Source: Planctomycetota bacterium | GTDB lineage: Bacteria; Planctomycetota; SZUA-567; JAKLDR01 | DNA: 64,000 nucleotides | NCBI GenBank assembly: GCA_022703445.1 | Contig: JAKLDR010000010.1 | Location: 1-64,000, forward strand | Direction: 5' to 3' | Shown: positions 10,363 through 46,011 of the stretch, in pieces | Layout of the letters: the number at the start of each line of letters is the position of its first letter | Position numbering within the stretch: position 1 is the first letter of the stretch | Translations under genes and position numbers: made by a program | Notes under the pieces: generated by a model | The model's input: only the letters and a program-made list of their open reading frames with translations | Database searches by the model: none | Told to the model about the DNA's origin: nothing

Positions 10363-11081
10363 GTTGTCCTCCTTCGTTCGTCGTTGCCTTTTCCGGTCTC
10401 CTCCTGGTCGTGGCCTGGCGAACGCAAGCTGCGTGCCACGGCCACGGAGTCGTCTGGTTTCGGTTCAGCCTGTTGAAGCAGCCTGCGCCTCAGGACACCC
10501 TCCACCTGAAGCGCACCAGAGCCGGTCAGCACAAGGCCGTCAGGAGTCACCCGCACATGGCAGCTCACTTTCGCCGGGCTGTTCCCGGCGCGGGCCTCCA
10601 GGGCCGGATTGAAGAAGAGCAGCCGCTGGTTGGACGAGCCCCGGTAGTGGCCCGGAGGAAGCGCCAGGCCTTGCACGAACGGCCCGTCGATGAGCAAGTC
10701 CAGCTCCGCAAGCAGGCCCGCCGCTCCGGGCACCACGTCGCTCCGGATCTCCTCAACGGTATACCCGGAATAGGCCGCGACGTAGAGCCCGGCCTCCTTG
10801 ACCATGCGGGCAACGCTGCGCACCAGGCGGGCCTGCAGCATAGGCTCCCCGCCGCTGAAACAGACCCCAGCGATTCCCCGGAGCCCGCGCACCCAACGGG
10901 CAAGGCTTTCCGGCCGGGCCAGCATCCCGATGCGCCGGGTGCTCTGAAATCCCGGATTGGCGCACCCCTCGCAGTGCAGCCGGCAACCCTGGAGCCAGCA
11001 CCCGGCCCAAAGCCCCCCAGGCGCCATGGCCATGCTGCCCGGATCGAGCGCGGCGATGTTCAGGAGACCTTCGGGGACCAT
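10359..11081 (-). CDS. NrdG-like radical-SAM activating enzyme
   Basis: A 240-residue protein resembling the activases of anaerobic ribonucleotide reductase and pyruvate formate-lyase. The signature QGCRLHCEGCANPGF gives C-x3-C-x2-C; GVCFSGGEPMLQA is the SAM-binding GGEP motif; and LDLLIDGPFVQGLAL is typical of NrdG relatives. A longer in-frame start would enter the AAA+ gene, so I use ATG 11081, six bases past that gene's stop. No class III reductase (nrdD) is in the window and the local reductase is class II, so the target is probably a different glycyl-radical protein or something new. Confidence 0.82.
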   Translation of the reverse strand: MVPEGLLNIAALDPGSMAMAPGGLWAGCWLQGCRLHCEGCANPGFQSTRRIGMLARPESLARWVRGLRGIAGVCFSGGEPMLQARLVRSVARMVKEAGLYVAAYSGYTVEEIRSDVVPGAAGLLAELDLLIDGPFVQGLALPPGHYRGSSNQRLLFFNPALEARAGNSPAKVSCHVRVTPDGLVLTGSGALQVEGVLRRRLLQQAEPKPDDSVAVARSLRSPGHDQEETGKGNDERRRTT

Positions 11082-11086
11082 GGTCT

Positions 11087-12790
11087 TCAGCCCCTGCCCA
11101 CAGTGACCGTGCCCTGGGCATCGGCGTCGACCACCAGGGGGCTCCCGCGCCCGGGCTGCTCGCGCACCGAGAACCGCGCCACTTTGTGGAGCAGCTCGCA
11201 GGTGACCGCGTGGTTGGCGGTGTGTCCCGCTTGGCCGCGCCTCTCCGCAGCGCGGACCAGTGCGTCCATCGCCGCCGGAGTGATGCGCAGGCGGTTGCCC
11301 GTTCCTGCCTCGACCCTCCGTACCCCGTCCTGCACCGCCTGCTCCACCACCCTGCGGTGGCCATCGGCCGAAAGGGCGTCGAGGCTCATCACGGCCTGCA
11401 TGCGGTTGAGGAATGGCCGGCCGAACCCAGCCTCCAGCACATCCATGTAGGCCGCCCGGCGCCCGGGGGCGTCCTGGATGCGTTCCGCCAGATCGCAGCC
11501 GAGGTTCGTAGTGAAGACGACGATGAGGTTGCGGAGGTTGACCTCGGTGCCGTCCCCGAGGCGCGCCAGCCCGCTCTCGAGGGCAGTCAACAGCGACTCC
11601 AGTATCTCCCGCACGCACTTCTCTGCCTCGTCCAGGATCAGCACCTGCAGGGTTCCGTCGACCTGGCCCAGCAGCCCTCGTGTCTCCCCGAAGCCCCGGA
11701 AGCCAGGCGGCGGCCCGAAAAGCTCCGTGATGTTGGCCTCGTTCCGGCACTTCTCCAAGCTGAACTGGAGGACCCCCTTCGGTCCTCTGAGCAGTTCCAT
11801 GAGGACCCTGGGGACCATGGACTTGCCGCAGCCTGACGGCCCGGCCAGCAGCATGCATCCTAATACGCCCCGGCGGGGCCTCATACCGGTTGCCGCCATC
11901 GCCGCGCAGCCAACCAGGAAGTCGATGGCCGGTTCGGCACCGACGATCTCCCGGCGCGCGGCCGCCTCCGCCTTCAGTATCCTGCCGGTGTCAGGGACGC
12001 CGTCACAGCCGTCCAACACAGCAGCCATGGCCGCCGGGGTGACGCGCACGCCGTCCTTCCGGATACGCCTGAGCGCGTAGTCGAGGTCGGCCAGAGGGCG
12101 GGAGCCGAACCGCTCGGCCAGGATGTCCACGCCGCCCGCCTCGAACAGCGAAGGTTCCGCGGCCCGGGCCAGCTCGAGGCAACTGCGCACGTCTTCCTGC
12201 GACGGCTGCGTTATCTCGATGGCCAGGCAGGCCATCCCGAACTTGCCGACCTGCCGCTGGAACCTGTCCATATCCCGGATAATGACCACCAGCAGGTTGC
12301 CCTGGGCGATGCCCGTCCCCGACGCAACCCAGCTGCGCAGGTAGTCCGCGAGCAGAGGGTTGCCGCCGGTGTCCGGGTCGTCCAGCACCGCCGCCACCCG
12401 GCCGGGGCTGGCCAGGACGCCTGCCAGGACCTGGTAACTGGTCAGGGCGTCGAACTGCATTTCCTGGCGGAGCCGGCCCTCCAGGCGCTCCCGCATCTGG
12501 GCCACCCGGTCCTCCGCAGTCCCCGCCTCAGGGCCGCTCCTCGTCTGCTGGATCCGCTGGCGCAGGCCGGCATCCTCGGTGCGCAGCCCCTCGCAGGCGC
12601 GGAACGTCAGCACCGTCCTGTTGCGGGCGGCGGCCGCAATCACCACTTCCCCCAAGGGGGCGAAGCCCTTGCCGAAGGGGAGAAGGTCCTGCACGAGCCC
12701 GCTGACCGTAACCGACGTGAACGCCGACCCGTCGGACATCGGCTCCCGCAGGGCTTCCACCACACCCCGGCCGCTCAGTTGCCGCTGCAT
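11087..12790 (-). CDS. ClpA/ClpB-like AAA+ ATPase
   Basis: A 567-residue protein with two AAA-like modules. The second (about 310-500) is complete and of the AAA_2/Clp type: Walker A GPSGCGKS, Walker B QVLILDEAEK, sensor VVFTTNLGCD and an arginine-finger-like GFGRPFLNRM. It ends in a Clp C-domain-like tail. The first (about 60-260) lacks a P-loop but keeps a Walker B-like LLVVIIRDMDRF, so it seems a degenerate ring. Clp-like unfoldases remodel protein complexes with ATP. There is no N-terminal Clp repeat, so its targets likely come from the adjacent propeller/coiled-coil proteins. SD AAGGAG precedes ATG 12790. Confidence 0.8.
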   Translation of the reverse strand: MQRQLSGRGVVEALREPMSDGSAFTSVTVSGLVQDLLPFGKGFAPLGEVVIAAAARNRTVLTFRACEGLRTEDAGLRQRIQQTRSGPEAGTAEDRVAQMRERLEGRLRQEMQFDALTSYQVLAGVLASPGRVAAVLDDPDTGGNPLLADYLRSWVASGTGIAQGNLLVVIIRDMDRFQRQVGKFGMACLAIEITQPSQEDVRSCLELARAAEPSLFEAGGVDILAERFGSRPLADLDYALRRIRKDGVRVTPAAMAAVLDGCDGVPDTGRILKAEAAARREIVGAEPAIDFLVGCAAMAATGMRPRRGVLGCMLLAGPSGCGKSMVPRVLMELLRGPKGVLQFSLEKCRNEANITELFGPPPGFRGFGETRGLLGQVDGTLQVLILDEAEKCVREILESLLTALESGLARLGDGTEVNLRNLIVVFTTNLGCDLAERIQDAPGRRAAYMDVLEAGFGRPFLNRMQAVMSLDALSADGHRRVVEQAVQDGVRRVEAGTGNRLRITPAAMDALVRAAERRGQAGHTANHAVTCELLHKVARFSVREQPGRGSPLVVDADAQGTVTVGRG

Positions 12791-13299
12791 GTTCTGCTCC
12801 TTGCTTCAAGGTGCCCCTCGTCGTCCGACGCCATGGCCTCGGGCTTCAGTTGCGTGACCTCGTCGCTCACCGCGAACCCCGCTTCGCCGAGCCGCTCGTC
12901 CAGCTTCCGCGACAGGTCCAGGCAACCGCGGCCCGCGAAGCCCTCCATGTCGAAGAAAGCGTTCCCACCGCGGTCAACGGTCAGGTACACCCTCTCCCCC
13001 GTTGGCCGGAAGGCCGCCTGGACCGGCCGGCCGTCGATCAGTTCCGTCTGCACGTCGAACCCGTGGCTTCTCAGGGCGCCGGCCAGCTCCCTGGTAATGG
13101 CTTGGTCCAGTTCCTGTTGCAGGCGCTCTTCCTCTGCCCGGCGATGCTCGGCCTCGGCGCGCTGCCGCTCTTCCTCAGCCTTCCTGACAGCCTCGCCGGT
13201 GGCGGCTGCCACGGCCGGCGCGGGCACGTAGTGTGCGGCATCGTCGCTTCTGCCACCTGCCCACCGGCGCCTGACCCTGATCGTTCTGCGCGAAGACAT
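12775..13299 (-). CDS. Hypothetical coiled-coil protein
   Basis: A protein of 174 residues. Residues about 35-75 form a strongly charged helix (AVRKAEEERQRAEAEHRRAE), probably coiled coil. A compact C-terminal domain follows (FDVQTELIDGRPVQAAFRPT, VYLTVDRGGNAFFDMEGFAG) of unknown fold. I chose ATG 13299 because AAGGAG lies 12 bases upstream; a GTG at 13311 would leave no room for that SD. It overlaps the start of the AAA+ gene by 16 bases, which suggests a partner or substrate adaptor for that ATPase. Confidence 0.68.
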   Translation of the reverse strand: MSSRRTIRVRRRWAGGRSDDAAHYVPAPAVAAATGEAVRKAEEERQRAEAEHRRAEEERLQQELDQAITRELAGALRSHGFDVQTELIDGRPVQAAFRPTGERVYLTVDRGGNAFFDMEGFAGRGCLDLSRKLDERLGEAGFAVSDEVTQLKPEAMASDDEGHLEARSRTCSGN

Positions 13300-13303
13300 G
13301 GCC

Positions 13304-15196
13304 TCAAGCACTCCTTTCGTCCTGTTGGCCCTGGAGCCTGGCGGCCTGCCTGGCCGCCTGGTCCCGGTTCAACCTTGCCCGTTCCTCCTCCTCCTGCATG
13401 GCCTGCTCCAGCCGCCTGACCAACGCCTCCTGCTTGAGCAGATCGTCCCGGCGCGCGCTGAGCACCGTGGCCAGCTCGGCGGCCTTCGCCTCCTCGTCCG
13501 TGGTGTCCTTCGCAACCCTCTCCAGCCGCTCGGCGGCGGCGCTGACAGCCTCCCGCGTCTCCTCGAGCTGCGCCTTCGCCGCCTGCAGATCCCCGTCCTT
13601 CCTGGCCAGCTCCTGCTGGTGCTCGCGGATCCGCGCGCGGGCATCCTCGATAGCCCCGGCGACGGCCTCGTTCTCGTCCACGACCTTGGCCTCCTTGCGC
13701 TCCAGGCAGGCCAGCTCCCGTTGGCCCTTGGAAAGCGACCCGTCCAACAGCGCCCCCCGCCCGTCGCCGCACGTCGGCCTCGCTGCCAGTAGCAGAACCT
13801 CGTTGGTGGCCCGCTTCGCCATGCCCACGATGATCTTGCCGAACTCGCCGGGAATATGGGTTTGCGGACGGCCCAGCAGCTTCTTCCTGGCCTCCACGGC
13901 AGGATGATGGTCCCGTACAACCTCCAGATGCACGCCCATCAACCGCGTGGAATCCATGAACCACCCTAGCTTAAGCTGGTCCACCTCGTCCGACTCCAGG
14001 ACCGTGCGGTCGGCGGCGCGCCACATCTCCAGCACCTCAATGTGCTTGTCATACAGGTCTATGCTTTCCCTCGCGCGGCGCCGCTCCCGCGGGTCCGGAG
14101 ACTCCGTCGCCAGCCGGCTCAACTCTCGCCGCTCCGCGCGCACCTGCTCGAGTGCCTTGGCCGTGGACTCCGCGGCGCGGCGGTCCTCTTCCTCAAGGGC
14201 TTTCATCTCGCGCGCGTGGTTCTCCATGGACCTGATGCCCGCCTGCAGTACCTGCACCCCGGCCTCCGCCGTGTAAGCGAGGTTCTTCGCCCGCCAGTCC
14301 AGCGTCTGGAGCAGCCGGCTGTCCCCGCCCCCGAGGTGGAACCGGAAGACCTTCGCCTTCACCCGGACCTGCAGTTCCGCCCGGCGGCAGGCGATGACCG
14401 CCTCGTCGGCAGGGCCGGGAAGCGCCAGCGGCTCGAAAGCCCCGAGGTCGTTGCGCACGAGGCACCGGCCGCCGGCAAGCACCGCTGCCTCCCAAGCACC
14501 GTCAGGCGTGCAGGCCAGGGCCCGGACCTGCCCCGGCACAGGCACCTGGCGAAGCAGGTTGCCCTTCTCCCCGAAGCGGGCCACCACTCCGCCGCAGTCG
14601 CAGCCGAAGAAGAACGCGCCGTCCGCAAGCCCGCCGCACAGGCAGCGGCCAGGCAAAGGCACCCTGCTGGCCGCCCCTCCGCGCACGATGACCGCCTGCG
14701 CGGACCCGTCGGTGACCACGTAGGTCCCGGGTTCCTCGGTCAGGTGGATCCGCACGGCCCCCAGCCGGAACCTGCCGAAGAGCCCTCCGGGCGCCGGCAG
14801 CTCCGCAAACATCCGGACGTTCCCGGTCGCGGCTTCCAGTACCCCGAGGGATCTCCCGCTGACAAAAACCACGCCGTCGGCGGCCTCGTCCCACACCAGG
14901 CCGCGGACCTTCGCCGGCAGGGTTTCCCGGAACACCTTGGCGGCCTGGACATTGAGGCAGCGGACCGTCCGGCCGTCAGCGCCAGCCAGTACCTTTGCGT
15001 CAGGACTGGCGGTTATCAGCCCGGACGGCTCCAGCTCGGCAATGGGCAGGGCACCCGCCGCCAAGTCCGGGTCGCACCTGAACACGCTGCCATCGGCCCG
15101 CAAGACCGCCGCGGTCTTCAGGTGGGGCAGCGGCACCGTCTGAACCGCCTCCGCGTCGCCCAGGTCGAAACTGCTCAGTGGTTGTGGCTGTGACAT
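13304..15196 (-). CDS. Beta-propeller-like and coiled-coil protein
   Basis: A 630-residue protein. The first half (about 20-290) is built of repeating beta-rich units (TAAVLRADGSVFRCDP, LITASPDAKVLAGADGRTVR, VRGLVWDEAADGVVFVSGRS), like WD/PQQ-type propeller blades. The second half is long coiled coil (ARIREHQQELARKDGDLQAA, REAVSAAAERLERVAKDTTD). ATG 15196 has AGGAGG eight bases upstream, stronger than the in-frame start 57 bases earlier. Such proteins act as scaffolds. With the adjoining Clp-like ATPase and SprT-like peptidase it may form a substrate-recognition platform, which is inference. Confidence 0.75.
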   Translation of the reverse strand: MSQPQPLSSFDLGDAEAVQTVPLPHLKTAAVLRADGSVFRCDPDLAAGALPIAELEPSGLITASPDAKVLAGADGRTVRCLNVQAAKVFRETLPAKVRGLVWDEAADGVVFVSGRSLGVLEAATGNVRMFAELPAPGGLFGRFRLGAVRIHLTEEPGTYVVTDGSAQAVIVRGGAASRVPLPGRCLCGGLADGAFFFGCDCGGVVARFGEKGNLLRQVPVPGQVRALACTPDGAWEAAVLAGGRCLVRNDLGAFEPLALPGPADEAVIACRRAELQVRVKAKVFRFHLGGGDSRLLQTLDWRAKNLAYTAEAGVQVLQAGIRSMENHAREMKALEEEDRRAAESTAKALEQVRAERRELSRLATESPDPRERRRARESIDLYDKHIEVLEMWRAADRTVLESDEVDQLKLGWFMDSTRLMGVHLEVVRDHHPAVEARKKLLGRPQTHIPGEFGKIIVGMAKRATNEVLLLAARPTCGDGRGALLDGSLSKGQRELACLERKEAKVVDENEAVAGAIEDARARIREHQQELARKDGDLQAAKAQLEETREAVSAAAERLERVAKDTTDEEAKAAELATVLSARRDDLLKQEALVRRLEQAMQEEEERARLNRDQAARQAARLQGQQDERSA

Positions 15197-15230
15197 GCTT
15201 GGATCCTCCTTCATCTCCACGGGCCCAAAG

Positions 15231-16028
15231 CTACAGCTCTCGGTGGAACTCATTGCCGCAACGCAAACAGCGTGCCCGGACCTCGACAGCGGCGCGGATG
15301 GTCGTGCAGCCCTTGCTGCACACCCACTTCAGCATCTTGCACGACGTTCTCACGGGCTCTGCTTCGGGAAGCAGGTACTTGAGTTCAGGCAAGCCGTGAC
15401 TGACGATCAGCTTGTTAAAGAGCCCGTCCGCCGCGATTGAGAGGGTATGCCCCCGATTGTCCACCTCGATGCCGAAGTGATGGCTCATCAGCCGGTATTC
15501 GCGGTTGTGGTAATTATGCTTGCCCGGCTTCCCCCGAAGTTCCTGCCATAGATGGAGCAACTCATGGAACCAGACCTTTAGTAGGAAACCAGGGCCACCT
15601 TCTTCGAGGCAATCGTCAAGATCTAGCGTAATCTCAAAACGGAACCCAGCTTCACCGTGATTGTTGATGTACGTGCCATAAGCACGGGGGAGGGACCGGA
15701 ACCTGAGATGTGGACGCGGCAGCGGACCGCCAAGGATTAGCGAGAACTTCTCGTTGAAGATATCGAACCAACGCCACAGGAAGGCTGCAACTTCACGGTA
15801 TACCCATGTGGACTGGCCCACATACTCCTTCACTTGGTCGTTCATGGCGATATCTGCATCACTGCACTTGTTTCGGGAACTGGTGACCCCTGTGAGATCC
15901 ACCGTAACTGTGCGGCAAGGATCTGCCGTTTCGTTTTCCGGTTTATACTCCAAGGCCCCTCCCTCCTGTGGGGGAGCGGCGTCAGCAACGGCGGTGCCGG
16001 GCGCAAGCTGGCCGGATGTCGGTGTCAT
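15231..16028 (-). CDS. SprT-like zinc metallopeptidase
   Basis: A 265-residue protein with the metallopeptidase motif FHELLHLWQELRG (HExxH) and a later NREYRLMSHHFGIEVD that supplies further ligands. A C-terminal zinc ribbon follows (CSKGCTTI, RCLRCGNEF). This matches SprT/Spartan-type peptidases, some of which clear DNA-protein crosslinks. Here a long insert separates the motif and ribbon, so the class may be divergent. I place the start at ATG 16028, with AGGAG about nine bases upstream; the next gene's stop overlaps just before. The DNA is somewhat AT-richer than its neighbours. Lying first in the ATPase operon, it could act on protein-DNA adducts. Confidence 0.72.
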   Translation of the reverse strand: MTPTSGQLAPGTAVADAAPPQEGGALEYKPENETADPCRTVTVDLTGVTSSRNKCSDADIAMNDQVKEYVGQSTWVYREVAAFLWRWFDIFNEKFSLILGGPLPRPHLRFRSLPRAYGTYINNHGEAGFRFEITLDLDDCLEEGGPGFLLKVWFHELLHLWQELRGKPGKHNYHNREYRLMSHHFGIEVDNRGHTLSIAADGLFNKLIVSHGLPELKYLLPEAEPVRTSCKMLKWVCSKGCTTIRAAVEVRARCLRCGNEFHREL

Positions 16029-16040
16029 CGGCCCCACTCC

Positions 16041-16436
16041 TCACGCCGACCGGCGGTGTGTCAGGACCTGGGCGCGGTTCACCTTCGCGCGCCGCACGGC
16101 CGCGTCCACCAGGTGCCTCGGCAGGGGGAAGCCCTTATGCGTCGGGTCAACGGCCAAGCCCTGGCCGCAGCAGGACCGGACGGCCTTGCGGCGGCCCGCC
16201 ATGACGTGGCCCGCAGGCCATGTGGCCCCGCACGGACACGGCTGCCGGCGACCGATCACGGGGAACCGGGCCGGTGTGCTCCTGGCGGGCTGCTCGATGG
16301 GCGGGGTTGCCGGTGCCGCAGGCGCCGGCTCCACCAGCGGCGCCCGCCCGCCCGTCTTCCGGAAGGTCTTGATGGCGGCGACGGCCAGGAGCAGCGCTGC
16401 GGCGGTTACTACCAGGACAGTGATCAGGCTTGTCAT
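16041..16436 (-). CDS. Small membrane-anchored hypothetical protein
   Basis: A 131-residue protein with one N-terminal membrane segment (SLITVLVVTAAALLLAVAAI, residues 3-22), a proline/alanine-rich linker and a C-terminal domain with CPCGATWPAGH and RSCCGQGL, whose cysteines may bind zinc. It is the first gene of the long minus-strand run that continues to base 1. AGGGAG lies upstream of ATG 16436. No known family. Confidence 0.6.
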   Translation of the reverse strand: MTSLITVLVVTAAALLLAVAAIKTFRKTGGRAPLVEPAPAAPATPPIEQPARSTPARFPVIGRRQPCPCGATWPAGHVMAGRRKAVRSCCGQGLAVDPTHKGFPLPRHLVDAAVRRAKVNRAQVLTHRRSA

Positions 16437-16609
16437 CTCGATTCTCCCTTCATCCAGTTGCGGGGGACGGCCCGCAGACGGCGGGGCACATAGGCAAGTT
16501 CTGGGCCAATGGATCCGGCGCGCTTCTGAATCCCGTTGCGCCGTGGCAACAGGGCTTTCAGCGGGGACTTACGATATCGTGCGCATCGAGACCGGTTGGG
16601 GCGCCTGGT

Positions 16610-16666
16610 TTCTCAGGCACCGTGAGAAATGAGGATTCTCACGCCGTTCTCAGATTCTCATGAGAA
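16610..16666. promoter_or_regulatory. Cluster of six TTCTCA/TGAGAA half-sites (operator-like)
   Basis: Half-sites lie at 16610-16615, 16623-16628, 16636-16641, 16647-16652, 16655-16660 and 16661-16666. The last two form the perfect palindrome TTCTCATGAGAA; the first three alternate orientation with 7-base spacers. The cluster lies 125-180 bases before the bEBP-like gene and between divergent transcripts, like an enhancer or operator array for an oligomeric regulator. The encoded AAA+/HTH protein itself is the natural candidate ligand. Confidence 0.6.
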
Positions 16667-16789
16667 TGCCGTTGGCCGAGAGCGGCCCCTGCATGGCAGG
16701 GGTGTTTGACGCCGAGAGCCTTTGCCCTAGAATCCTCCGGCAGCAGTGGGGACGTGCCTTCAGGCCACCACGGAGGAGGAGTCACCACC

Positions 16790-18688
16790 ATGATCACGGT
16801 ATTGGAGAGTGAAGCTGCGGGCAAGACCGCGGCACCGGGGGAATGGGCTCTGTTCACGTTTCTGATCCGCAACCTTGGCGATGTCCCCAACAGATACAGC
16901 TATCGCGCAAGCATCCATGAGGTCAAGGGCGAGAGCAGCAAGGGTCGCGACATTACGCAGGAATGGTTTGCCGCCGGCGGTGAGATCCTCGTTCCTGTGC
17001 CCCTTGGCGGGGGGCAGGAAATCCAGAACGCGTCAGCGACTGGCATTCTCCATCCAACCGGCGGCGCCCCTTTCCTTGAGGTACATGTCCGCGTCCATGT
17101 TCCCGTTTCCACCTTACCCACAACTGCTGACCGGTATGCTATTGTCCTTCGTTCTTCGTCGGCCGCCGATGAAACTGAATGGTCAGAGGGGCTCTACATA
17201 CTGACGCTACGAAGTCAACGAAGAGAGCGGCTGGCCTCAGAGGGTGCATTGCCTGGTCACACAAACACAGCCAAGAAGGACGCGCAGACCGATTCACTGG
17301 GCAAGCCGGATGCCGGCGGACATGTACGCTTCTCCCACCTCAAACGGCAGCCGTTTGACCCGATTGAAGCAGGGAACGGCCTCACAGCTCTGCCAAGCCA
17401 TTCAAGAAGCGGCCCCGACTGGCAACAAGCACTCGCTCAACACCTCAGCAACCATCCTGCCACGGGCAAGGAATCAACGCCTATTCACCAGTACGTCTGT
17501 GCCTGTCTCCGGACGCGAGCGGCGGTATCGGGGGCCTCCCAAGAACAACGCACGTCCTTATTGGCTGAAGCCAGGCAGGTCTACGAAGCGCTTCTTGCCC
17601 GCTATGACTGGGAGTGGTCGGCAAGATGCACCATACTTGAGGAGCTAGGACGTTGTCGGCGTGCACAATTCACCGGGAACTACGACGAGATACTCGGCAT
17701 ATCGCCGCACCTATTGGATGTGCTTGAAGTGATTGACGCCGTTGCTGATAAGACTTGTAGCGTGCTGATCCTAGGCGCAACAGGCACCGGGAAGGAACTG
17801 ATAGCGCAAGCGTTGCATCGCAATAGCCCACGGTGCAAAGGCCCCTTCGTAGCCGTCAATTGTTCCGTTTCCAAGACTATCGAGAATGACATGTTCGGCA
17901 CATGCGCCAAGAGCTTCACTCAAGTTGAGGAAAGGCCGGGGCAGTTCGAGAACGCTCATACGGGGACGCTATTCCTCGATGAGATTGGTGACATGTCCAT
18001 GGATCTCCAGCCAACCATCCTCCGGGTTCTTGATAGCAGTGTTGTTGGAAGACTAGGAGGACGTCAGCACACGCCCTCGGATAAGTGTGGACAAGGCAGC
18101 GCGAACCATTTCGCGATTCCTATCGATGTCAGGTACGTTTGCGCCACCAACCATGATCTGGAGAAAGCTGAACGAGAGGGGACGTTTCGGGGTGAGTTGC
18201 TGGGCCGCATTTCAAGCATTCGCGTCTCCCTTCCATCGCTAGCTCAACGCCCAGAGGACATTCCAGCCTTGGCCGATTTCTTCTTGGCCAGGACAAAGCG
18301 TCACAACAATCTGCAATATGACGTCACGTTTGCCCATGATCTAATGGCGGCTCTTCGGCAATACAGTTGGCCGCGCAACGTTCGGCAACTGGAAAAGACC
18401 ATTGACGCAATGGTCGCCTGTACTAGGAATACGACGGTGCTATCCTTCGCGCATTTGCCAAGTGACATCAAGAAAGCGCTAATAGATTGTAGCGGTTCCG
18501 CAAACGCGACCCAAGTGCCTGTGACCGACGCTCAGTATCTTGAGGAATTGAAGCTGTTCGCGGATGCCTTTCGGTCAACAGGAATGAATCGCTACCGCAC
18601 AATGGAGATCCTTCACTTCAGCCAAGCGACTTTCTACCGTAGGCGCGACGATGCGATCGCTGCCGGCCTACTGCCTCAGATGGACTAG
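16790..18688 (+). CDS. Ig-like domain plus bEBP-type AAA+ ATPase plus HTH (lacks GAFTGA)
   Basis: A 632-residue protein in three parts. Residues about 8-150 are a beta-sandwich (PGEWALFTFLIRNLGDVPNR, ATGILHPTGGAPFLEVHVRV) shared with the NACHT protein at 19243. About 300-545 is an AAA+ domain of the sigma-54-activator type: Walker A GATGTGKE at about 329, Walker B LFLDEIGD near 394, and WPRNVRQLEKTI. About 590-630 is a Fis-like HTH (MEILHFSQATFYRRRDDA). The loop that is GAFTGA in true activators reads AKSFTQV (about 373), so sigma-54 contact is not expected, and archaea lack sigma-54. ATG 16790 has GGAGGAG upstream. The Ig-like part probably senses or pairs with the NACHT protein. It is clearly AT-richer than the flanks. 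Confidence 0.85.
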   Translation: MITVLESEAAGKTAAPGEWALFTFLIRNLGDVPNRYSYRASIHEVKGESSKGRDITQEWFAAGGEILVPVPLGGGQEIQNASATGILHPTGGAPFLEVHVRVHVPVSTLPTTADRYAIVLRSSSAADETEWSEGLYILTLRSQRRERLASEGALPGHTNTAKKDAQTDSLGKPDAGGHVRFSHLKRQPFDPIEAGNGLTALPSHSRSGPDWQQALAQHLSNHPATGKESTPIHQYVCACLRTRAAVSGASQEQRTSLLAEARQVYEALLARYDWEWSARCTILEELGRCRRAQFTGNYDEILGISPHLLDVLEVIDAVADKTCSVLILGATGTGKELIAQALHRNSPRCKGPFVAVNCSVSKTIENDMFGTCAKSFTQVEERPGQFENAHTGTLFLDEIGDMSMDLQPTILRVLDSSVVGRLGGRQHTPSDKCGQGSANHFAIPIDVRYVCATNHDLEKAEREGTFRGELLGRISSIRVSLPSLAQRPEDIPALADFFLARTKRHNNLQYDVTFAHDLMAALRQYSWPRNVRQLEKTIDAMVACTRNTTVLSFAHLPSDIKKALIDCSGSANATQVPVTDAQYLEELKLFADAFRSTGMNRYRTMEILHFSQATFYRRRDDAIAAGLLPQMD

Positions 18689-19177
18689 CCGCATGTTGAT
18701 TCTCTTTATATCTTCTCCGCCAAGGCCGGCAAGACATCGTCCTTTGTACTCCCAGTCAAGAGCCTCGGCCTTGTACCCGGTGGCGATGAGATCTTCGACA
18801 AGTTGTGCTCTCTCAGTATCCTCCGCAGATCTCTTCTCGTATTTCTTCTCCACAGTCAACCCCAGAGGATCTATCTCGCAGGGGAGCATCGATTCTAAGT
18901 TCACGGCAGAAGCCAGCCAATATCCATCCCATTCAAGCGTGTGCGCAAGCTTGTCTGTGTCCACTATTAAGAGGGCTGGATGATCATGGTATTGTCGGGC
19001 CCGCTCTATTGCGAGACCCCGCGGACCAGTGGGCTCTCCATAGAAACACACAGGTTTGCCGTCGTGTCTGAACTCCCCATACTGCGCAATCTGTCCATAC
19101 ATGTAGTTCAGACAGGTTCCGGTATACAGCAGTCTGGGAGGAGCCCTTGCCTGGTTGGCGTCGATATCATGCGTCAT
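18668..19177 (-). CDS. Putative ADP-ribosyltransferase-fold protein
   Basis: A 169-residue protein between the two Ig-domain genes, on the opposite strand. RLLYTGTCLNYMYGQI, then GLAIERARQYHDHPALLIVD and LESMLPCEI follow the pattern of ART-fold enzymes (a start like LYHGT, a strand with VVLEVD, a late glutamate region). The match is weak and the usual His is absent. It could be the effector of the flanking system, modifying protein or nucleic acid. I start at ATG 19177 because a TATA box lies 26 bases upstream, making it leaderless; ATG 19183 is an alternative. The 3' end overlaps the bEBP-like gene by 21 bases. Confidence 0.5.
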   Translation of the reverse strand: MTHDIDANQARAPPRLLYTGTCLNYMYGQIAQYGEFRHDGKPVCFYGEPTGPRGLAIERARQYHDHPALLIVDTDKLAHTLEWDGYWLASAVNLESMLPCEIDPLGLTVEKKYEKRSAEDTERAQLVEDLIATGYKAEALDWEYKGRCLAGLGGEDIKRINMRLVHLRQ

Positions 19178-19198
19178 GCCCATATAGTAACAACGCGA

Positions 19199-19207
19199 CT
19201 TATAAAG
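19199..19207. promoter_or_regulatory. Divergent TATA box (CTTATAAAG / CTTTATAAG)
   Basis: One near-symmetric TATA box sits between the ART-like gene (minus) and the NACHT gene (plus). In the minus direction it is 26 bases from ATG 19177. In the plus direction it would start a transcript near 19228, leaving a 15-base leader with GGGAGG before ATG 19243. Confidence 0.6.
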
Positions 19208-19242
19208 CTTGCTGAGAGTCGCGAAGCGGGGAGGGCAGCATA

Positions 19243-21417
19243 ATGGCTCAGCCCGCTGTCATCCGCCATCCGGACCAACCCACGCTTGTCACTGCCGGGC
19301 CAGGGGAGTGGGCAACCGTAACGTTTGCCATCCGCAATCTCGGCCTGGAACCAGATAGCTACAGTTACGAACCATACGTGTATTCCATTCGCGGCGGGGA
19401 AAGCAAAGGGCAAGACCTGACAGCGCAGTGGCAGGCGTTCGAAACGATCCAAGTCAACCAGTCGCTTGGTTTGGGGCAAGTGGTGCAAGCAAGCAGTGGA
19501 ACCGGCGTCATTCATCCTGCGGGTGGGAACCCGTATCTCCCTCTTGTGTTCCGGGTGCGAGTTCCTGCGGATGCTGGTCTAGTTGGAACGAAGTTTCTGC
19601 TTGGACTACGGGCAGTATCCCGCTTGGACTCTACAGAGGTGTGCGAGGCATACATCGTATTGATGGTGACCGAAGGAGCAGCGGCCAGCATTCGCCTCTA
19701 CGCCGGGAGGCTCAAGACCGAGATGGAAGACACTTGGCAGCGTTTGCCAGTGTCCATTCAGTTGCCGGAGCCAGTCCCGCTTAAGGTAGCGCTTGCTTGT
19801 CACAAAGCGGCACTTGTGCCTGTCGCTGCTGACATCCATACCGGATTGTCTCTTGGGAAAGCCATAGAGCAAGCGTTGGCAGCATCTAGTGTCGTCGTCG
19901 TCCTTGGTAACGCCGGAGCTGGCAAGACCGCCTCACTGAAATGGGTTGTAAGGGAGCAGGCTATTCGACTCCTGCGATGCGATGCAGACACGACCGCTAA
20001 GGTCCCAGTCTATGTTGACCTGGGGAACTTCAGAGACTGTGCCTCGCTGGAAACCATATTGACTAAGGCCCGACCTGAAGGGGTGACGACAAAGCACTCT
20101 GTATGCTGGTTTCTCGATAGTCTGGATTTGCTCTCTGACAAGTGCACCCCCACCACTGTTCTGCGAGATGTCAAAGAAAGAGCTGCAACAGAAGATCAAT
20201 TCGTGTTGTCCGCAAGGCCCACCAGTGAAATCGAAGGCTCTTTGGACAAATGGGGGCGTTCCTGGCGTATTTCCCTGTTGCCCATGGATGGTTCGGCGCG
20301 CAGACTGTGGATCGACAAACACGCAAAAGGCGCATGGCCTAGTCTGGCCAAGTGGGAGGCCACGAACCCAGCTGCTCGCCAGTTCCTTGACACACCTCTA
20401 TTCTTCGCCATGGTTCTCTCCTCTTGTCTCAACCCAAGCCATAGCCTTCCCATGAACTGCGACGTCTACCCTGGTCGTACCGGGATCATCCGCGCTTTCG
20501 TGCACTGTGCCATGGAGTGTGCGGTCAGAGATGGGCGGATTGCGAACCTCGAACGGCAGAATCTTGATCACGCCACAATCGCGGGTTTCTGGTGGTCCGT
20601 CGTAACTTCTGGTGACGTAGACCGTTTCTTTCAAGAGCAAGAGGCGTATCATGGCTCGCGCGCCTTTGTCGACTGGACTGCGCGGAGATGGCCTGAATCC
20701 AGAGATATCCTAGTGAGGACAGGACTGCTATTCTATATGCCTTCCGAAGACGTCTATTGTGTGCCCCATCAGCTCATAGCAGAGTACTGGGCCGCCCGCC
20801 ATGTCGAATCCAAGTTGTTGGAGGCCGAAGCCACGAATCGATTTGAAGACGAGGTGCTAGCACAAACAGATGATCTGCGTCCTAACATGATGATCCCGTG
20901 CGCGTTCGCGATCTTGTCATCAAGACCTAATGGCGCGACGCTTCTTCGCAGAGCACTGGACGCAATGGCCAACGTCGACGCCCTTAGCGCCTTCTGGATT
21001 ACGGGGAAGGTCGGTGGACCAGACGCTAGGGATTTTCTTGTTGGGAAACTCAAAGACGCAAACGACAAGACGCGAGTGGCCGCTATGTGCGCTATGCTCG
21101 CGCTCGCTGATCCTGAGGTCCTTCCCGATATCGTTCGCGGGTTAGCAGATGCAGATCGCGGAGTCAGAACTGGTGCCGTGCTGGCTCTTATGAAATTGCG
21201 CGACCCACGCGGTTTCGAGCCATTATGCCATGCATTAGCGAGCGATGATTGTCTTGTTAGAGCGAATGCAGCAGAAGCACTGGGAGAATTTGGGGACATT
21301 CGCGCAGTTGCCTTGCTTCAGCCACTGGTCGCGGACGACAACTTCCTTGTAGCCAAGGAAGCCGCAGAAGCGATAAGCAAGCTGCAAGAGCACATGGATG
21401 GCACTAAGTCCTCTTAG
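19243..21417 (+). CDS. Ig-like domain plus NACHT/STAND NTPase plus HEAT repeats
   Basis: A 724-residue protein. Residues about 15-145 are the same beta-sandwich as in the bEBP-like protein (PGEWATVTFAIRNLGLEPDS, TGVIHPAGGNPYLPLVFRVR). A NACHT-type NTPase follows: Walker A LGNAGAGKTAS at about 221 and Walker B VCWFLDSLDLLSD near 287. About 590-720 are HEAT-like repeats (VRTGAVLALMKLRDPRGFEP, VRANAAEALGEFGDIRAVAL). STAND NTPases are switch proteins that oligomerise on sensing a trigger, often in antiphage immunity. The HEAT end probably senses and the Ig-like end recruits a partner. ATG 19243 has GGGAGG eight bases before. Confidence 0.88.
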   Translation: MAQPAVIRHPDQPTLVTAGPGEWATVTFAIRNLGLEPDSYSYEPYVYSIRGGESKGQDLTAQWQAFETIQVNQSLGLGQVVQASSGTGVIHPAGGNPYLPLVFRVRVPADAGLVGTKFLLGLRAVSRLDSTEVCEAYIVLMVTEGAAASIRLYAGRLKTEMEDTWQRLPVSIQLPEPVPLKVALACHKAALVPVAADIHTGLSLGKAIEQALAASSVVVVLGNAGAGKTASLKWVVREQAIRLLRCDADTTAKVPVYVDLGNFRDCASLETILTKARPEGVTTKHSVCWFLDSLDLLSDKCTPTTVLRDVKERAATEDQFVLSARPTSEIEGSLDKWGRSWRISLLPMDGSARRLWIDKHAKGAWPSLAKWEATNPAARQFLDTPLFFAMVLSSCLNPSHSLPMNCDVYPGRTGIIRAFVHCAMECAVRDGRIANLERQNLDHATIAGFWWSVVTSGDVDRFFQEQEAYHGSRAFVDWTARRWPESRDILVRTGLLFYMPSEDVYCVPHQLIAEYWAARHVESKLLEAEATNRFEDEVLAQTDDLRPNMMIPCAFAILSSRPNGATLLRRALDAMANVDALSAFWITGKVGGPDARDFLVGKLKDANDKTRVAAMCAMLALADPEVLPDIVRGLADADRGVRTGAVLALMKLRDPRGFEPLCHALASDDCLVRANAAEALGEFGDIRAVALLQPLVADDNFLVAKEAAEAISKLQEHMDGTKSS

Positions 21418-22271: not shown

Positions 22272-22319
22272 GGCGATGGCTATCCCCGGCCGCCCCCCCG
22301 CCGGCCGCGGCGGCGGGAA

Positions 22320-22468
22320 GGTTTCTCGGCACGTTTCTGGGGCGCGGGAAAGGTTTCTCAGGCCCCGGCGGCCGGGCCGGGAGGTTCCTCACGTTTCTCG
22401 GCCGGGAGAGAAAGTAGGCAGGGGAAGCGTCGGTGCGGGTTTGAACAACCCAGGGGGAGGTTTCTCGG
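22320..22468 (+). repeat. Six direct copies of a GTTTCTCGG motif (candidate iterons/origin)
   Basis: Near-copies lie at 22320-22329 (GGTTTCTCGG), 22332-22340, 22352-22362, 22383-22391, 22392-22401 and 22459-22468. Spacing is irregular and all point the same way. The 290-base gap (22272-22562) holds no convincing gene and has GC-rich palindromes. It lies 2.4 kb before orc1/cdc6. Initiator-binding repeats of this sort mark archaeal and plasmid origins, but the sequence is not the classic ORB. Confidence 0.5.
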
Positions 22469-22562
22469 AGATGGCTCGTGCGACAGACCATTGGCCGCGT
22501 TGTTGCAGGAGCTGCCCGTGGTCTAGCGGTTCCGGCCGGCCGGGCAAGGAGGTGCCTTGCCG

Positions 22563-24782
22563 ATGACCCAGGAGATAGATGAGCTGTGCCGCCGGCTGCT
22601 CCCTGTGGCAGGGGACCGGGTGCACGAGCTGTGGGCGCTCTACCAGGGCGAGAACGCCGATGGCCGCCGCTGGGTGGAGCTGGAGCTGAGGCGTCTGGCC
22701 GCGGAGCAGCTGGGCGTCACGTTCCAGGAGACGGGGCCCATGCTGGAGCCGCCGCCAGAGGAAATCTGCGCCGGCGATTACGTCCTGGGCACCGCCACCT
22801 ACAACGGCCAGGACCGCTGGCCCTTCGGCCTCCGCGAGGAGGAATGGATCCAGCACGTGGGCGTGTTCGGCCGCTCCGGCAGCGGCAAGACCAACCTCTG
22901 CTTCGGGGTGCTCAAGGCGCTGGCCGGGCATGGCAAGCCCTTCGTGATATTCGACTGGAAGCGCAACTACAGGGACGCGGTCTCCTTCCTGCCGGGGATG
23001 GTGGTCTTTTCTGTCGGGAGGGACGTCTCGCCGTTCAGGTTCAACCCGCTCATCGTCCCGGAAGGGACGCCGCCCGGCGCGTGGCTCAAGAAGCTCATCG
23101 AGATCGTCGCGTCGGTCTACTTCCTTGGAGAGGGAGTGAAGTTCCTGCTCCAGAACGCCATCGACGCCGTCTACAGGGAGTACGGCGTCTACGACGGCAC
23201 GGTTACTTCCTGGCCGACGCTGGCCGACGTGGCGGCCAGGCTGGACAAGGAGGACCCCACCGGCCGCCGCGCGGAGTGGCAGGCGTCCACCATGCGCGCG
23301 CTCGGCGCCATCAACTTCGGCGAGTTCGGGAAGGTGGTCAACGTGCGGGAGCCGTTCCCGCTGGCCGGACTGCTGCAAAGGCAGGTGGTGCTGGAGCTGG
23401 ACGCGCTCACGTCCACGGACAAGACGTTCCTGACCGAGGCGTTCCTGCTCTGGCTCCATCACCACCAGATGGCCCAGCCCGGCCGGGAGACCTTCAAGTG
23501 CGCCGTCGTGATCGAAGAGGCGCACCACCTGCTGCTGCGGAAACGGCAGGAGATGACCGGTGAGGAAACGGCCCCGGACATTCTCCTGAGAGAGATACGG
23601 GAGCTCGGCGTCGGCATCACTCTTTTGGACCAGCACCCCTCTCTCATTTCCAAGCCCGCCCTGGGAAACTCAGGGACCACGGTCTGCATGAATTTGAAGC
23701 ATGCGGATGACGTGCGGTCAGCAGGAGACGCTATGGGGCTTTTCGGGGATGACCGGAAGGCCCTCGGTGAGATACCGGTCGGCTCGGCGGTGGTGCGGTT
23801 GCAGGGACGCTGGCCGCGGCCGTTCACCGTGCGGTTCCCGCGCGTGGAGGTGAAGAAGGGCAGCGTGGACGACGCGAAGCTGCGGGAGCTGATGGACAAC
23901 GCCATCCTGCGGGGCTTCCCTGGCCGGCTGGAATGCCGGATGCTCCACGAGCGGATGGCGCTGTTCCTGGAGGAGGCATGGGGCTTCTTCGGGCCTCTGC
24001 TGGAGGACGCGGGGGTGCCCGGGAACGGGCCAGGCGAAAGCCCCGGCGGCCCTGGGAAGGGCGGCGAAGAAGTGCGCAAGTGCGAGGGCGAAGACGGTGC
24101 CGCAACTGGCCGGAAGAAGGCAGGAGAAGAAGCGGAGCGGGACGGAGGCGCAGGCGGAGAAGATGCCGGGGACGGCCTGCCGCAGGCCGACTGGGAACTG
24201 CTCCGGGACGTGGCGCTGAGGCCGGCCGAGGCGACCCATGAGCGCTACGGCCGGCTGGGGCTGACGTTCTACCTGGGGAACAAGGCCCGGGATGCGCTCG
24301 TGGAGAGGGGGCTGGTGGCCGTGGTGAAGGTGAAGACCGGCAAGGGCCGGGTGAAGCTTTTCGAGCCCACTGCCGCCGGCCGGGAACTGCTGAAGATGCG
24401 CGGGGTGACCGCGAGCTGGCGCCGCGGCGGAGTGGTGCACGCTTTCTGGGTCCGCCGCGCGGCGGACACCCTGCGCCAGCAGGGCTGGACCGTTGAAGTG
24501 GAGAAAACGATCGGAGGCGGGGCGGCCGTGGACATCGTGGCCGGGAAGGAAGGCGAGGAGCTGGCCGTGGAGGTGGAAACCGGCAAGTCCGAAGCCGGCC
24601 ACAACGTGAAGAGGGCGCTGGCGGCCGGCTTTGGACAGGTGATCGTGCTGGCCACTGACAAGAAGGCTGCCGCGGAACTGGTGCGGGAGATTGCCGGGAG
24701 TCCGGCCGGCCGGGTGAAGGTATGCCTGGCGGCGGCCTGGGCAGGCATCGAAGGTGCCGGCCAGGAGGCCGGTGCGGGGTGA
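22563..24782 (+). CDS. HerA-like ATPase fused to a nuclease-like C-terminal domain
   Basis: A protein of 739 residues. The HerA/DUF87 core has Walker A FGRSGSGKTN at about 102-111, FVIFDWKRNYRDAV after it, and Walker B CAVVIEEAHHLLL near 313. A Gly/Glu-rich linker (about 480-540) leads to a winged-helix region, then about 620-735 a restriction-nuclease-like fold: VVHAFWVRRAADTL, VDIVAGKEGEELAVEVETGK (Asp and paired Glu), and AAGFGQVIVLATDK. HerA-type ATPases pump DNA for end resection or transfer. ATG 22563 has GGAGGTG upstream; a TTG six bases earlier is less likely. A degenerate relative lies at 3427-5676 and a fragment at 21490-21690. Confidence 0.88.
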   Translation: MTQEIDELCRRLLPVAGDRVHELWALYQGENADGRRWVELELRRLAAEQLGVTFQETGPMLEPPPEEICAGDYVLGTATYNGQDRWPFGLREEEWIQHVGVFGRSGSGKTNLCFGVLKALAGHGKPFVIFDWKRNYRDAVSFLPGMVVFSVGRDVSPFRFNPLIVPEGTPPGAWLKKLIEIVASVYFLGEGVKFLLQNAIDAVYREYGVYDGTVTSWPTLADVAARLDKEDPTGRRAEWQASTMRALGAINFGEFGKVVNVREPFPLAGLLQRQVVLELDALTSTDKTFLTEAFLLWLHHHQMAQPGRETFKCAVVIEEAHHLLLRKRQEMTGEETAPDILLREIRELGVGITLLDQHPSLISKPALGNSGTTVCMNLKHADDVRSAGDAMGLFGDDRKALGEIPVGSAVVRLQGRWPRPFTVRFPRVEVKKGSVDDAKLRELMDNAILRGFPGRLECRMLHERMALFLEEAWGFFGPLLEDAGVPGNGPGESPGGPGKGGEEVRKCEGEDGAATGRKKAGEEAERDGGAGGEDAGDGLPQADWELLRDVALRPAEATHERYGRLGLTFYLGNKARDALVERGLVAVVKVKTGKGRVKLFEPTAAGRELLKMRGVTASWRRGGVVHAFWVRRAADTLRQQGWTVEVEKTIGGGAAVDIVAGKEGEELAVEVETGKSEAGHNVKRALAAGFGQVIVLATDKKAAAELVREIAGSPAGRVKVCLAAAWAGIEGAGQEAGAG

Positions 24783-25957: not shown

Positions 25958-26146
25958 ATGGCCGGTACGCAGCCGAAGGACCGGAAGCCGGAGCCAGGGC
26001 TCCCCGAGTGGGTGATGATAGTGCGTCAGCTTGAGGCCGAGGCCAGGATGGAGATGCAGGGCGGCGGGGTCACGGGGCAAGCTGCGCAGGGGCCGTCCGT
26101 CCGTCCGAAGGCGCGGCGGACAACTTCTTCTTCATGCGCTCCTTGA
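25958..26146 (+). CDS. Small hypothetical protein after orc1
   Basis: A 62-codon frame starting with ATG directly after the orc1 stop. The first 35 residues (DRKPEPGLPEWVMIVRQLEA) look protein-like. The end runs antisense into the 3' end of the integrase gene by 77 bases and turns low-complexity. It may be a short orc1-operon gene cut by the integrase side, or chance. Confidence 0.35.
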   Translation: MAGTQPKDRKPEPGLPEWVMIVRQLEAEARMEMQGGGVTGQAAQGPSVRPKARRTTSSSCAP

Positions 26147-27311
26147 GCATGGCCTGGAGCGCCGGGTCGTCCCTGAGAAGCTCGGCGATCATCCGGCCGG
26201 CTTCGACGGTATCCTGTTCGGACTTGTAGACCTCGGCCGAGTCCAGGGGCGCCGCGCAACGGCAGCAGAACTTGGACGTGCCAGGGTTCGTCTCGGCACA
26301 ACGGATGCATGTGCGTGGCGTGAGGGCGCTTTCCCGCGGCTGCGCGTGGGCCGGCGCCACGCCAGCTATCTGCAACAAGGCACCGTCCACGTCGCGGCCG
26401 GATAGGTGCACGTAGGTGCGCGGCATGGAAGAGCCTTGCGTCCAGCCGAACACCGCGTTCATTTGCGCTTCCGTGAGCCGGGAAGCCAGGAAGGTGGCGC
26501 GGCTGTGGCGGAAGATGTAGGGGTATATCCTCTTGTTGATGCCGACGCGGCGGGCGGCCAGCTTGACCACGCGGTTGAGCATGCTGTTGCTGGGAGGGAC
26601 GCGACAGTTGCAGTCGGTGCGGCTCGCCCAGAGGACCGCGTCCGGGTCGTTGCGGCGAGGATGCTGCTCCAGCCAGGTTGCAAGGATGTGCGCGAAGAGG
26701 CAGACCCTGGTGCGCCTCATCCCGGTCTTGCCGTTGACCAGCAGCACGAAACCGTACTGGTCCGGGTGCACGTGCTTGATGCGCAGGCTCCCCAGTTCGT
26801 CCGGCCGGCAGCCGGTCTCGTATAGGCACGCGAGGAAAGCGGCGTCACGGAAACTCTGACAGGCTGACACCATCCTGCCGACTTCCTCCTCGGTAAGCAT
26901 CTCCTCGGGAAGCTTCCTGGTCATGCACCTTGCGCCGATCCTCAAGGCCCGCACTTCGGGCGGGTAATCCTCCGTCCCTCGGAGCCACCTGAAGAACCGC
27001 TTCAGGACCACCCGGTAGTCGTGCTTGGTCCAGGACGAATAGTCTGCGGCCTCTATGCGGTTTACGAAATCCTCCACGTCACGCTTGGTCCATTTCGCGG
27101 CCGGCTTGCGGCAGCCGGCGAAAACATGCCGGAGCATGCAGACGTACTTTGACTGCCTGGCGAAGCCGAGGCCCTCGGCCGCGATGTGCCTCTGGAAGTT
27201 CAGTATCTCCTTCCTGTTGGCCGGAAGGACGCTGTCGTCGTTCTCCAGGTTCGTGACCGCGTTGGCGGCCAGCTTCCTGAAGTCGTAGGTTGTAGTTCTA
27301 GTGATGTTCAT
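26070..27311 (-). CDS. Archaeal-type tyrosine recombinase (integrase)
   Basis: A 413-residue phage-integrase-family protein. It has an N-terminal SAM-like core-binding domain (EILNFQRHIAAEGLGFARQS) and the catalytic residues in order: Arg in ETGCRPDELGSLRIKHV, Lys in VNGKTGMRRTRV, HSRA in IFRHSRATFLASRLTEAQM, and Tyr in TYVHLSGRD. A C-terminal zinc ribbon (CIRCAETN, FCCRCAAP) and a helical tail follow. This layout is common in integrases of archaeal elements. The TATA box at 27335-27342 is 28 bases before ATG 27311, so the message is leaderless. It probably integrates, resolves or dimer-splits the element. Confidence 0.9.
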   Translation of the reverse strand: MNITRTTTYDFRKLAANAVTNLENDDSVLPANRKEILNFQRHIAAEGLGFARQSKYVCMLRHVFAGCRKPAAKWTKRDVEDFVNRIEAADYSSWTKHDYRVVLKRFFRWLRGTEDYPPEVRALRIGARCMTRKLPEEMLTEEEVGRMVSACQSFRDAAFLACLYETGCRPDELGSLRIKHVHPDQYGFVLLVNGKTGMRRTRVCLFAHILATWLEQHPRRNDPDAVLWASRTDCNCRVPPSNSMLNRVVKLAARRVGINKRIYPYIFRHSRATFLASRLTEAQMNAVFGWTQGSSMPRTYVHLSGRDVDGALLQIAGVAPAHAQPRESALTPRTCIRCAETNPGTSKFCCRCAAPLDSAEVYKSEQDTVEAGRMIAELLRDDPALQAMLKERMKKKLSAAPSDGRTAPAQLAP

Positions 27312-36656: not shown

Positions 36657-36880
36657 TACTGCCGACCAAGCACATACCTGCCGAGCGCGCTTTGGTAGGT
36701 GTCGGGGCGGTTCTGCTGCAGCATCTGGAAAGGCCGCGCACGGTGTCGGACCTGTGGGAGAAGGTGAAGGATCATGAGGCTGTGGGTAACTTTGAGCGGT
36801 TTGTCCTCGGCCTGGACCTCCTGCACATGCTCGGGGCCGTCAACCTCTCAAGGGGGTTGCTTGTGAAGGTGAGCGGATGA
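36653..36880 (+). CDS. ABC-3C middle component
   Basis: A 75-residue protein starting MILPTKHIPAERALVGVGAV and LLQHLERPRTVSDLWEKVKD. This matches the small middle component (type 6) of ABC three-component systems and resembles a winged-helix fold. It lies between the HNH gene and the ATPase with 4-base overlaps on both sides, so the three are co-translated. Confidence 0.82.
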   Translation: MILPTKHIPAERALVGVGAVLLQHLERPRTVSDLWEKVKDHEAVGNFERFVLGLDLLHMLGAVNLSRGLLVKVSG

Positions 36881-38622: not shown

Positions 38623-38650
38623 GTAGGGAGGCAACTCCCGAGGTTCTTCC

Positions 38651-39523: not shown

Positions 39524-39532
39524 TGAAAGCCG

Positions 39533-40687: not shown

Positions 40688-40702
40688 TCTCTAGGTGCCC
40701 CT

Positions 40703-40963: not shown

Positions 40964-41152
40964 CGGCCCGGCGCTCCCCCTGCGCGGGATTGTCTGCCTC
41001 CCGGGGCGGCCGTCAACTGCCACGAACGAACGCCGGCCGGGGCAGATGCCCGGAGTCGCACATACCGATGATACCCATGGCCGATGTGCGCTGCCGCTTG
41101 CAGCGGCCGTGACGCCATGGAAGATCCCCACGGGCTCTTGGAGGACTGACCC

Positions 41153-46005: not shown

Positions 46006-46011
46006 CGCCGG

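Follow-up and report, generated by a model that had tools for sequence, protein, structure and literature searches.

In a stretch of 64,000 nucleotides (nt) from a Planctomycetota contig (JAKLDR010000010.1, positions 1 to 64,000; hereafter the window), we analysed a block of three genes, here termed A, B and C, at positions 16,610-21,417 (Table 1). A and C encode two NTPases, a AAA+ protein of the bacterial enhancer-binding protein (bEBP) family and a NACHT-HEAT protein, and comparison of their sequences supports that the two begin with a homologous N-terminal domain, which is predicted to be an immunoglobulin (Ig)-like beta-sandwich. Such a pairing is unusual, and a literature search found no case of a NACHT protein paired with a bEBP. 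As a possibility that we favour tentatively, without holding it to be probable, we suggest that a NACHT receptor and a AAA+ regulator may be coupled through this shared adaptor in a foreign-looking cassette, where A would act as repressor, competitor or partner on repeat arrays in the flanking DNA.

Two NTPases with a homologous N-terminal domain

When the first approximately 155 residues of A and C were compared by BLASTP, 54 of 128 aligned residues were identical (42%, E 7e-32). The copies have two conserved segments in common, PGEW..IRNLG and HPxGGxPxL, which were located at PGEWALFTFLIRNLG and GILHPTGGAPFL in A and at PGEWATVTFAIRNLG and GVIHPAGGNPYL in C, so that the claim of an earlier, sequence-only reading of this DNA, that both NTPases start with the same domain, was borne out. 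A search of the own genome (a 6-Mb assembly, 81% complete) with C retrieved the domain of A at E 1.8e-25, the other 42 of the 44 matches falling within C residues 551-721, which is the HEAT region; no third copy of the domain was found in this assembly. Whole A and C gave no match over the domain in Pfam (up to E 1) or in NCBIfam, and the best matches of the domain in PHROGs and among the PDB sequences reached E values of 0.15 and 0.33, respectively.

A structure model was built for the C copy, with the A copy as the second row. The model has eight strands, a mean predicted local distance difference test score (pLDDT) of 74.6, a predicted TM score (pTM) of 0.70 and a poor middle part, and it agrees with the Ig-like beta-sandwich predicted earlier; the fold of the A domain is predicted from its homology to this modelled copy. 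VIA-align placed FimC first (Z 8.9, root-mean-square deviation 2.3-2.5 over 96-97 residues), followed by pilins, NgaAt and factor XIII with Z values of about 8. We did not take these matches, nor the fold matches obtained with a viral library, as functional clues but read them as the common Ig-like arrangement, and a fold this common is uninformative with regard to function.

The three genes are also alike in base composition. GC content is 0.53-0.57 in the 1-kb windows lying fully inside the block and mostly 0.65-0.71 in the flanks (exceptions being 0.59-0.64 at 15.0-16.5 kb and 0.61-0.64 past 26.5 kb), GC content at third codon positions (GC3) is 0.57-0.60 for A, B and C and mostly 0.7-0.9 for other genes, and both codon usage and GC profile are alike across the three. 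The block is thus AT-richer than its surroundings, as had been claimed, and because of its low GC and GC3 it looks foreign and may have been horizontally acquired. The small protein noted between the two NTPases on the opposite strand is gene B. A and B are convergent with a 21-nt overlap and B and C are divergent and 59 nt apart; the genes do not form an operon.

Table 1. Positions of the genes, domains and candidate regulatory elements in the window
Feature	Position	Strand	Description
Exact sigma54-type -24/-12 core	16494..16508	-	TGGC-N7-TTGC; 58 nt upstream of divergent gene 16041-16436
Left array	16610..16666		six TTCTCA/TGAGAA half-sites, dyad gaps 7, 8, 0
Sigma70-like promoter of A	16706..16733	+	TTGACG-16-TAGAAT, 10/12; 57 nt above ATG
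Gene A	16790..18688	+	632 amino acids (aa): Ig-like N-domain (~12-142), linker, sigma54-activator-family AAA+, lid, tail resembling a Fis-type helix-turn-helix (HTH)
Ig-like domain of A	16817..17218	+	fold predicted via homology to C copy
Gene B	18668..19183	-	171 aa orphan; ADP-ribosyltransferase (ART)-like pattern unsecured
B/C divergent region	19184..19242		59 nt; inverted repeat CGCGACT-N16-AGTCGCG at 19194-19223
Gene C	19243..21417	+	724 aa: Ig-like N-domain (~16-142), NACHT-like NTPase, C-terminal HEAT repeats
Ig-like domain of C	19282..19671	+	modelled beta-sandwich, eight strands
Right array	22322..22466		five TTTCTC/GAGAAA copies, upstream of 22492 core
Exact sigma54-type -24/-12 core	22492..22506	+	51 nt upstream of gene 22557-24782

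A bEBP-family protein with a substituted GAFTGA loop

The start of A was set at the ATG at 16790, behind GGAGGAGG, whereas the mechanically defined open reading frame (ORF) starts with a TTG at 16706. Pfam assigned to A the domains Sigma54_activat (E 7.8e-43, 146.5 bits, cut-off 20.2) and AAA_lid_14 (E 2e-17), and the Walker A (GATGTGKE), Walker B (TLFLDEIGDM) and FRxxLxxRI regions are kept. The L1 loop, however, reads KSFTQV instead of GAFTGA, and one residue is deleted after it. We aligned A with 59 loci, comprising 30 of the 34 matches in the own genome and 29 of the best relatives from 319 genomes of the phylum, with at most four candidates scored per listed genome. The pattern G[AS][FY]T[GD]A was kept in 56 of the 57 other aligned bEBPs, a count that leaves out L149, which did not align, and L147, which is A itself. 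The exception was L148 of the own genome (C304:23676-24173), a bEBP-like sequence whose L1 loop, AGPGGG, is degenerate and whose Walker B is poor. Among the matches listed, the best phylum relative of the AAA+ part and tail of A scored 196.6 bits, compared to 1122 for A.

With regard to the C-terminal HTH of A, no HTH model was matched in Pfam, and the RtcR_PspF2 and PrdR models align up to residue 617/618 of 632. RtcR was considered as an identity for A and rejected: the best PADLOC match, RtcR_PspF2 (E 8.6e-64), covers the AAA+ part and tail only, the PADLOC RtcR models span residues 282-617 only, and general NCBIfam bEBP models score similarly. RtcR is a CARF-AAA-HTH regulator, but A has no CARF domain at its N-terminus, the N-terminal domain being homologous to the modelled Ig-like domain of C.

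Because KSFTQV replaces GAFTGA, we hold a classical sigma54 activator to be less likely; from its sequence that role appears doubtful for A, and a modulator or repressor is likelier. GAFTGA is required for sigma54 contact, and certain bEBPs that lack the motif can regulate sigma70 promoters (PMC10274813). VspR belongs to this group and is described as regulating a CBASS operon negatively, although its loss had no effect in the drug assay of the same paper (PMC10653837).

Repeat arrays and predicted sigma54-type promoters to either side of the three genes

The left array lies 102-158 nt upstream of the core at 16494 and stops 40 nt short of the -35 hexamer of A, and the right array lies 26-170 nt upstream of the core at 22492. 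In 20 sequences of 64 kb simulated with a first-order Markov model, no hexamer exceeded four copies per 60 nt, compared to the six half-sites of the left array. When copies of TTCTC/GAGAA were counted upstream of 60 picked ORFs, A and 16041-16436 had seven each (from the same stretch), the gene at 22557 had five and the next highest had three. Five copies fall in 22272-22491, a number reached by none of 2000 simulated 220-nt stretches, this stretch having been picked post hoc. The remaining 16.5 kb of the contig holds at most three TTCTC-type copies per 150 nt, and among 36 other loci of the own genome (118.5 kb) only L149 reaches four. The operator-like array claimed earlier is consequently real as judged by simulation, but its attribution to the block alone is uncertain, since its sister array at 22322-22466 lies outside.

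Exact TGGC-N7-TTGC cores occur six times in the window, and four of these stand 80 nt or less upstream of a correctly oriented ORF, compared to a mean of 0.07 and a maximum of 1 in 60 simulations; it should be underlined that the 80-nt limit was chosen after the sites had been seen and that one of the counted ORFs, 10565-10903, is unsure. When one mismatch was allowed, 83 sites were found against 75.6 expected. A, B and C have no exact core upstream of them. Further exact cores were seen at 10983 and at 10424, the latter above gene 9223-10362, which encodes a radical SAM protein. Sigma70-like sites numbered four in the region against 2.1 expected, and the promoter of A is weak when taken alone. 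In the B/C intergenic region no array copy was found; the inverted repeat located there is a possible operator, with chance as the other option.

Since the TTCTC arrays and the outward-reading sigma54-type promoters flank the cassette, A would be well placed, by its position in the sequence, for control of both flanking operons. Binding of A to the arrays would fit this placement, but another bEBP may bind them instead. The earlier claim that A is a transcription switch thus fares unevenly: the arrays and the exact -24/-12 elements on both sides argue for such a role, whereas the KSFTQV loop argues against a classical sigma54 switch.

The NACHT-HEAT protein and the small protein between the NTPases

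C matched the Pfam families NACHT (PF05729, E 7.7e-5) and HEAT_2 (E 1.6e-17, best stretch 659-716). It reads GNAGAGKT at the P-loop and WFLDSLDLL (with DSLDL) at the Walker B position, and its VPHQLIAEYWAA presumably resembles the winged-helix end of STAND proteins. The earlier description as a NACHT-HEAT protein therefore holds in that a NACHT-like P-loop region, scoring below the Pfam cut-off, and HEAT repeats are present, and we infer that the latter could serve as the sensor region. In PADLOC, HEAT-ARM_XIII matched over the HEAT part only (E 1.9e-8) and the P-loop matches had E values of 0.035 or worse, and NCBIfam gave EruA at E 0.0055 over 37 residues. The NACHT part (390 aa) was found only in the own genome when searched against 294 phylum genomes at E 1e-5, and it had no match among plasmid records at E 1.

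B is probably a real gene, because its codon usage resembles that of A and C: on a score trained on these two genes (A 0.115, C 0.131), the B frame reached 0.151 and the other five frames at most 0.026. Searches of Pfam, PADLOC, NCBIfam and PHROGs returned no match to B, and those of 392 phylum genomes returned one besides B itself, in G200 (E 3.5e-4); this match, 46% over 35 residues, falls near the C-terminus of an ORF for a Ser/Thr kinase and was deemed chance. An AlphaFold model made without alignment (pLDDT 31.9) gave no usable fold. B was also aligned by hhalign with a KptA profile made from eight phylum KptA proteins (nine loci, the divergent L119 being left out), with a score of 26.7, a probability of 17% and E 0.0014, and none of 200 shuffles scored above 22.5. 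B resembles the ART lobe of KptA/Tpt1 in that it aligns in register with PPxLLYxGT and PxxLxVD, but it is without the N-terminal KptA domain, carries Thr where LYHGT has His and scores marginally. What stands of the ART-like pattern claimed earlier is this alignment and the first rank of B among 113 window segments; the statistics are insecure, and membership of KptA was not accepted, since a segment of the integrase 26070-27311 nearly ties the score of B with 25.0. We regard the resemblance as a lead from sequence, not an assignment.

Distribution of the domain

A profile of the Ig-like domain made from its two copies matched none of 391 other genomes of the phylum (at most ten candidates scored per listed genome), none of 28 other genomes of the class, none of 244 genomes from the group of a Rivularia genome and none of 247 from that of an Acidobacteria genome; a two-row profile has limited reach, and these counts do not show absence. 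Twelve assorted genomes gave two weak matches, in G394 (E 0.03) and G401 (E 0.06). Scans of genome contigs, viral contigs and plasmids yielded no convincing relative of the domain. The candidates examined and dropped were 96 genome-contig stretches with the pattern, by eye mostly short-chain dehydrogenases, Ig-like proteins or repeat proteins, the best tblastn match among them (L025, E 0.001) having an alignment that crosses stop codons; a Kovacikia plasmid match (E 2), by eye a repeat protein; a Pseudomonas match (E 3); and two pattern matches in viral contigs, deemed chance.

Genomic setting

The gene to the right, 22557-24782, encodes a HerA/CedD-like ATPase with weak HerA-type PADLOC matches, and is followed in series, up to 27311, by genes for a Cdc6-like AAA+ protein and the integrase. 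To the left, the minus strand of 9223-16037 encodes the radical SAM protein, a AAA_2 protein, a 649-aa protein, a protein matching DUF2997 weakly and one with a weak resemblance to SprT (phrog_6361, E 5e-6). Defence genes are predicted from 36 kb on, in a PADLOC screen of 13 proteins taken from outside the left part of the window: PDC-M68B (E 1.4e-208), PDC-S11 (E 8.9e-100), PDC-M48B (E 4.3e-90) and type III restriction. These predicted genes and the integrase speak for the conflict-system context proposed earlier, and a defence role of the cassette is a fair guess. Within 35901-51076 we noted an HNH protein with a CTD10-like part, a full-length PDC-M68B match, DUF4238, PDC-S11 and PDC-M48B, and within 56342-63552 type III restriction (56342-59527), methylation (59531-62680) and a HEPN-like gene (62851-63552). 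Between them, 53791-56324 is a second block of low GC3 (0.54-0.59), containing an M48 peptidase and two proteins without clear family.

Comparison with known systems

The locus may be compared with the NTP-dependent conflict systems linked to effector-associated domains (EADs), whose small terminal adaptor occurs both on an NTPase and on its partner and presumably links the two (PMC7159879, PMC8195603). A and C, encoded at one locus, likewise carry the same terminal domain on an NTPase and its partner. Of 12 EADs, however, 9 are alpha-helical, whereas the adaptor of A and C is predicted to be an Ig-like beta-sandwich; here, moreover, the partner is a AAA+ DNA-binding protein, and one instance is known. 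Homotypic adaptors are the principle of the EAD systems (PMC8195603), and because of this analogy a coupling of A and C is plausible.

C is like the antiphage bNACHT proteins (PMC12169576) in having an N-terminal domain, a central NACHT-like NTPase and a C-terminal sensor-like region, but its Ig-like N-terminal domain comes without a recognised effector, its NACHT match is below cut-off and the antiphage models fit it weakly or over HEAT repeats only. Some bNACHT clades are described as likewise having no discernible effector (PMC12169576). A shares with the bEBPs that have no GAFTGA (NtrC of Caulobacter and Rhodobacter, VspR of V. cholerae; PMC10274813, PMC10653837) a AAA+ bEBP-family architecture from which the motif is missing; it differs from them in its NACHT-shared Ig-like N-terminal domain, in a loop that is substituted and not deleted, and in the exact sigma54-type promoters on both sides.

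A possible mechanism and its alternatives

In the reading that we favour, a conflict cassette would have been acquired horizontally and would now sit between two outward-reading sigma54-type operons. C would be a bacterial NLR-like receptor whose HEAT repeats sense and whose NACHT-like NTPase switches and oligomerises, its Ig-like domain being an adaptor that replaces a built-in effector. In A the same adaptor would precede a AAA+ ATPase and a DNA-binding tail, and the protein would bind the TTCTC arrays as an ATP-gated repressor, a competitor or a partner of another bEBP; most likely it would not be a classical activator of those promoters, because its sigma54-contacting loop is degenerate. 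It may also act at its own sigma70-like promoter. On activation of C, the clustered Ig-like domains would engage those of A, either directly or through a common partner, and the assembly of A on DNA would change and, with it, the output of the flanking operons and of the cassette. B would be small cargo, perhaps an effector. Contact between A and C, oligomerisation, array binding by A, an effector role of B, defence and phage resistance are what we infer here. The further proposal, that a bacterial NLR signals by transcription, an activated NACHT-HEAT protein engaging, via a new Ig-like adaptor, a loop-rewired AAA+ protein on arrays above two operons, we put forward as somewhat doubtful.

Several observations weigh against this coupling. 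In the genomes scanned, neither the domain, the NACHT part nor B has a convincing relative outside the own genome, which leaves a single instance; neighbouring homologous domains can come from duplication without interaction, and Ig-like folds are generic. The NACHT match remains below the Pfam cut-off (23 against 26.7 bits), the antiphage models match C over HEAT repeats only or weakly over the P-loop, and the PADLOC match closest to the cassette is about 15 kb away if the weak HerA-type ones at 22557 are set aside. Lying to either side of the AT-rich block, the arrays and sigma54-type sites may be those of the older operons and of a different bEBP. In that case the three genes would be inserted neighbours with a duplicated domain and no single system, an account which the lone instance and the generic fold suit, as do the convergent and divergent gene orientations and the position of the right array and promoter outside the block. 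We regard it as unlikely; it is countered by the codon and GC profile common to all three genes, by the finding that the only two domain copies in the 6-Mb assembly share one block, and by A itself being a bEBP-family protein beside an array. Rather improbable, too, is that the Ig-like domains of A and C read the same third molecule in parallel, A setting expression and C acting, with no direct contact. The conservation of the two segments at 42% overall identity would fit such a putative shared ligand, but two sequences cannot tell structural from binding-site conservation.

The exact sigma54-type sites and the arrays could also mean that A works as a sigma54 activator despite its loop, and this part of the evidence is in tension, the loop being lost and the promoters present. 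In a version that builds on the sequence-only reading, A would depend on sigma54 and switch on the flanking operons (or the cassette) when infection is sensed by C, and B would be an ART effector. The Sigma54_activat domain, the spacing of the arrays to exact -24/-12 cores on both sides and the top rank of B against the KptA profile agree with it, but the KSFTQV loop with its one-residue deletion, the absence of the six exact cores in the window from the regions upstream of A, B and C, and the near tie of B with the integrase segment make it quite unlikely in our view. A further alternative takes A as a VspR-like repressor that silences the cassette, its Ig-like domain holding C inactive or being titrated by activated C. 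It draws on the loss of GAFTGA, on the array above the sigma70-like promoter of A and on the VspR precedent (PMC10274813, PMC10653837); the B/C intergenic region has no array copy, however, and an array ending 40 nt above the -35 hexamer equally suits an activator, and we consider this version very unlikely.

Bacterial NLR-like STAND proteins are mostly thought to switch on a fused or recruited toxin. If the coupling of the NACHT receptor and the AAA+ regulator proposed here is true, transcription would be the output of a NACHT receptor whose adaptor is also carried by a DNA-binding AAA+ protein, a beta-sandwich adaptor would replace the usual helical ones, and a bEBP with a degenerate sigma54 loop would gain a testable role.

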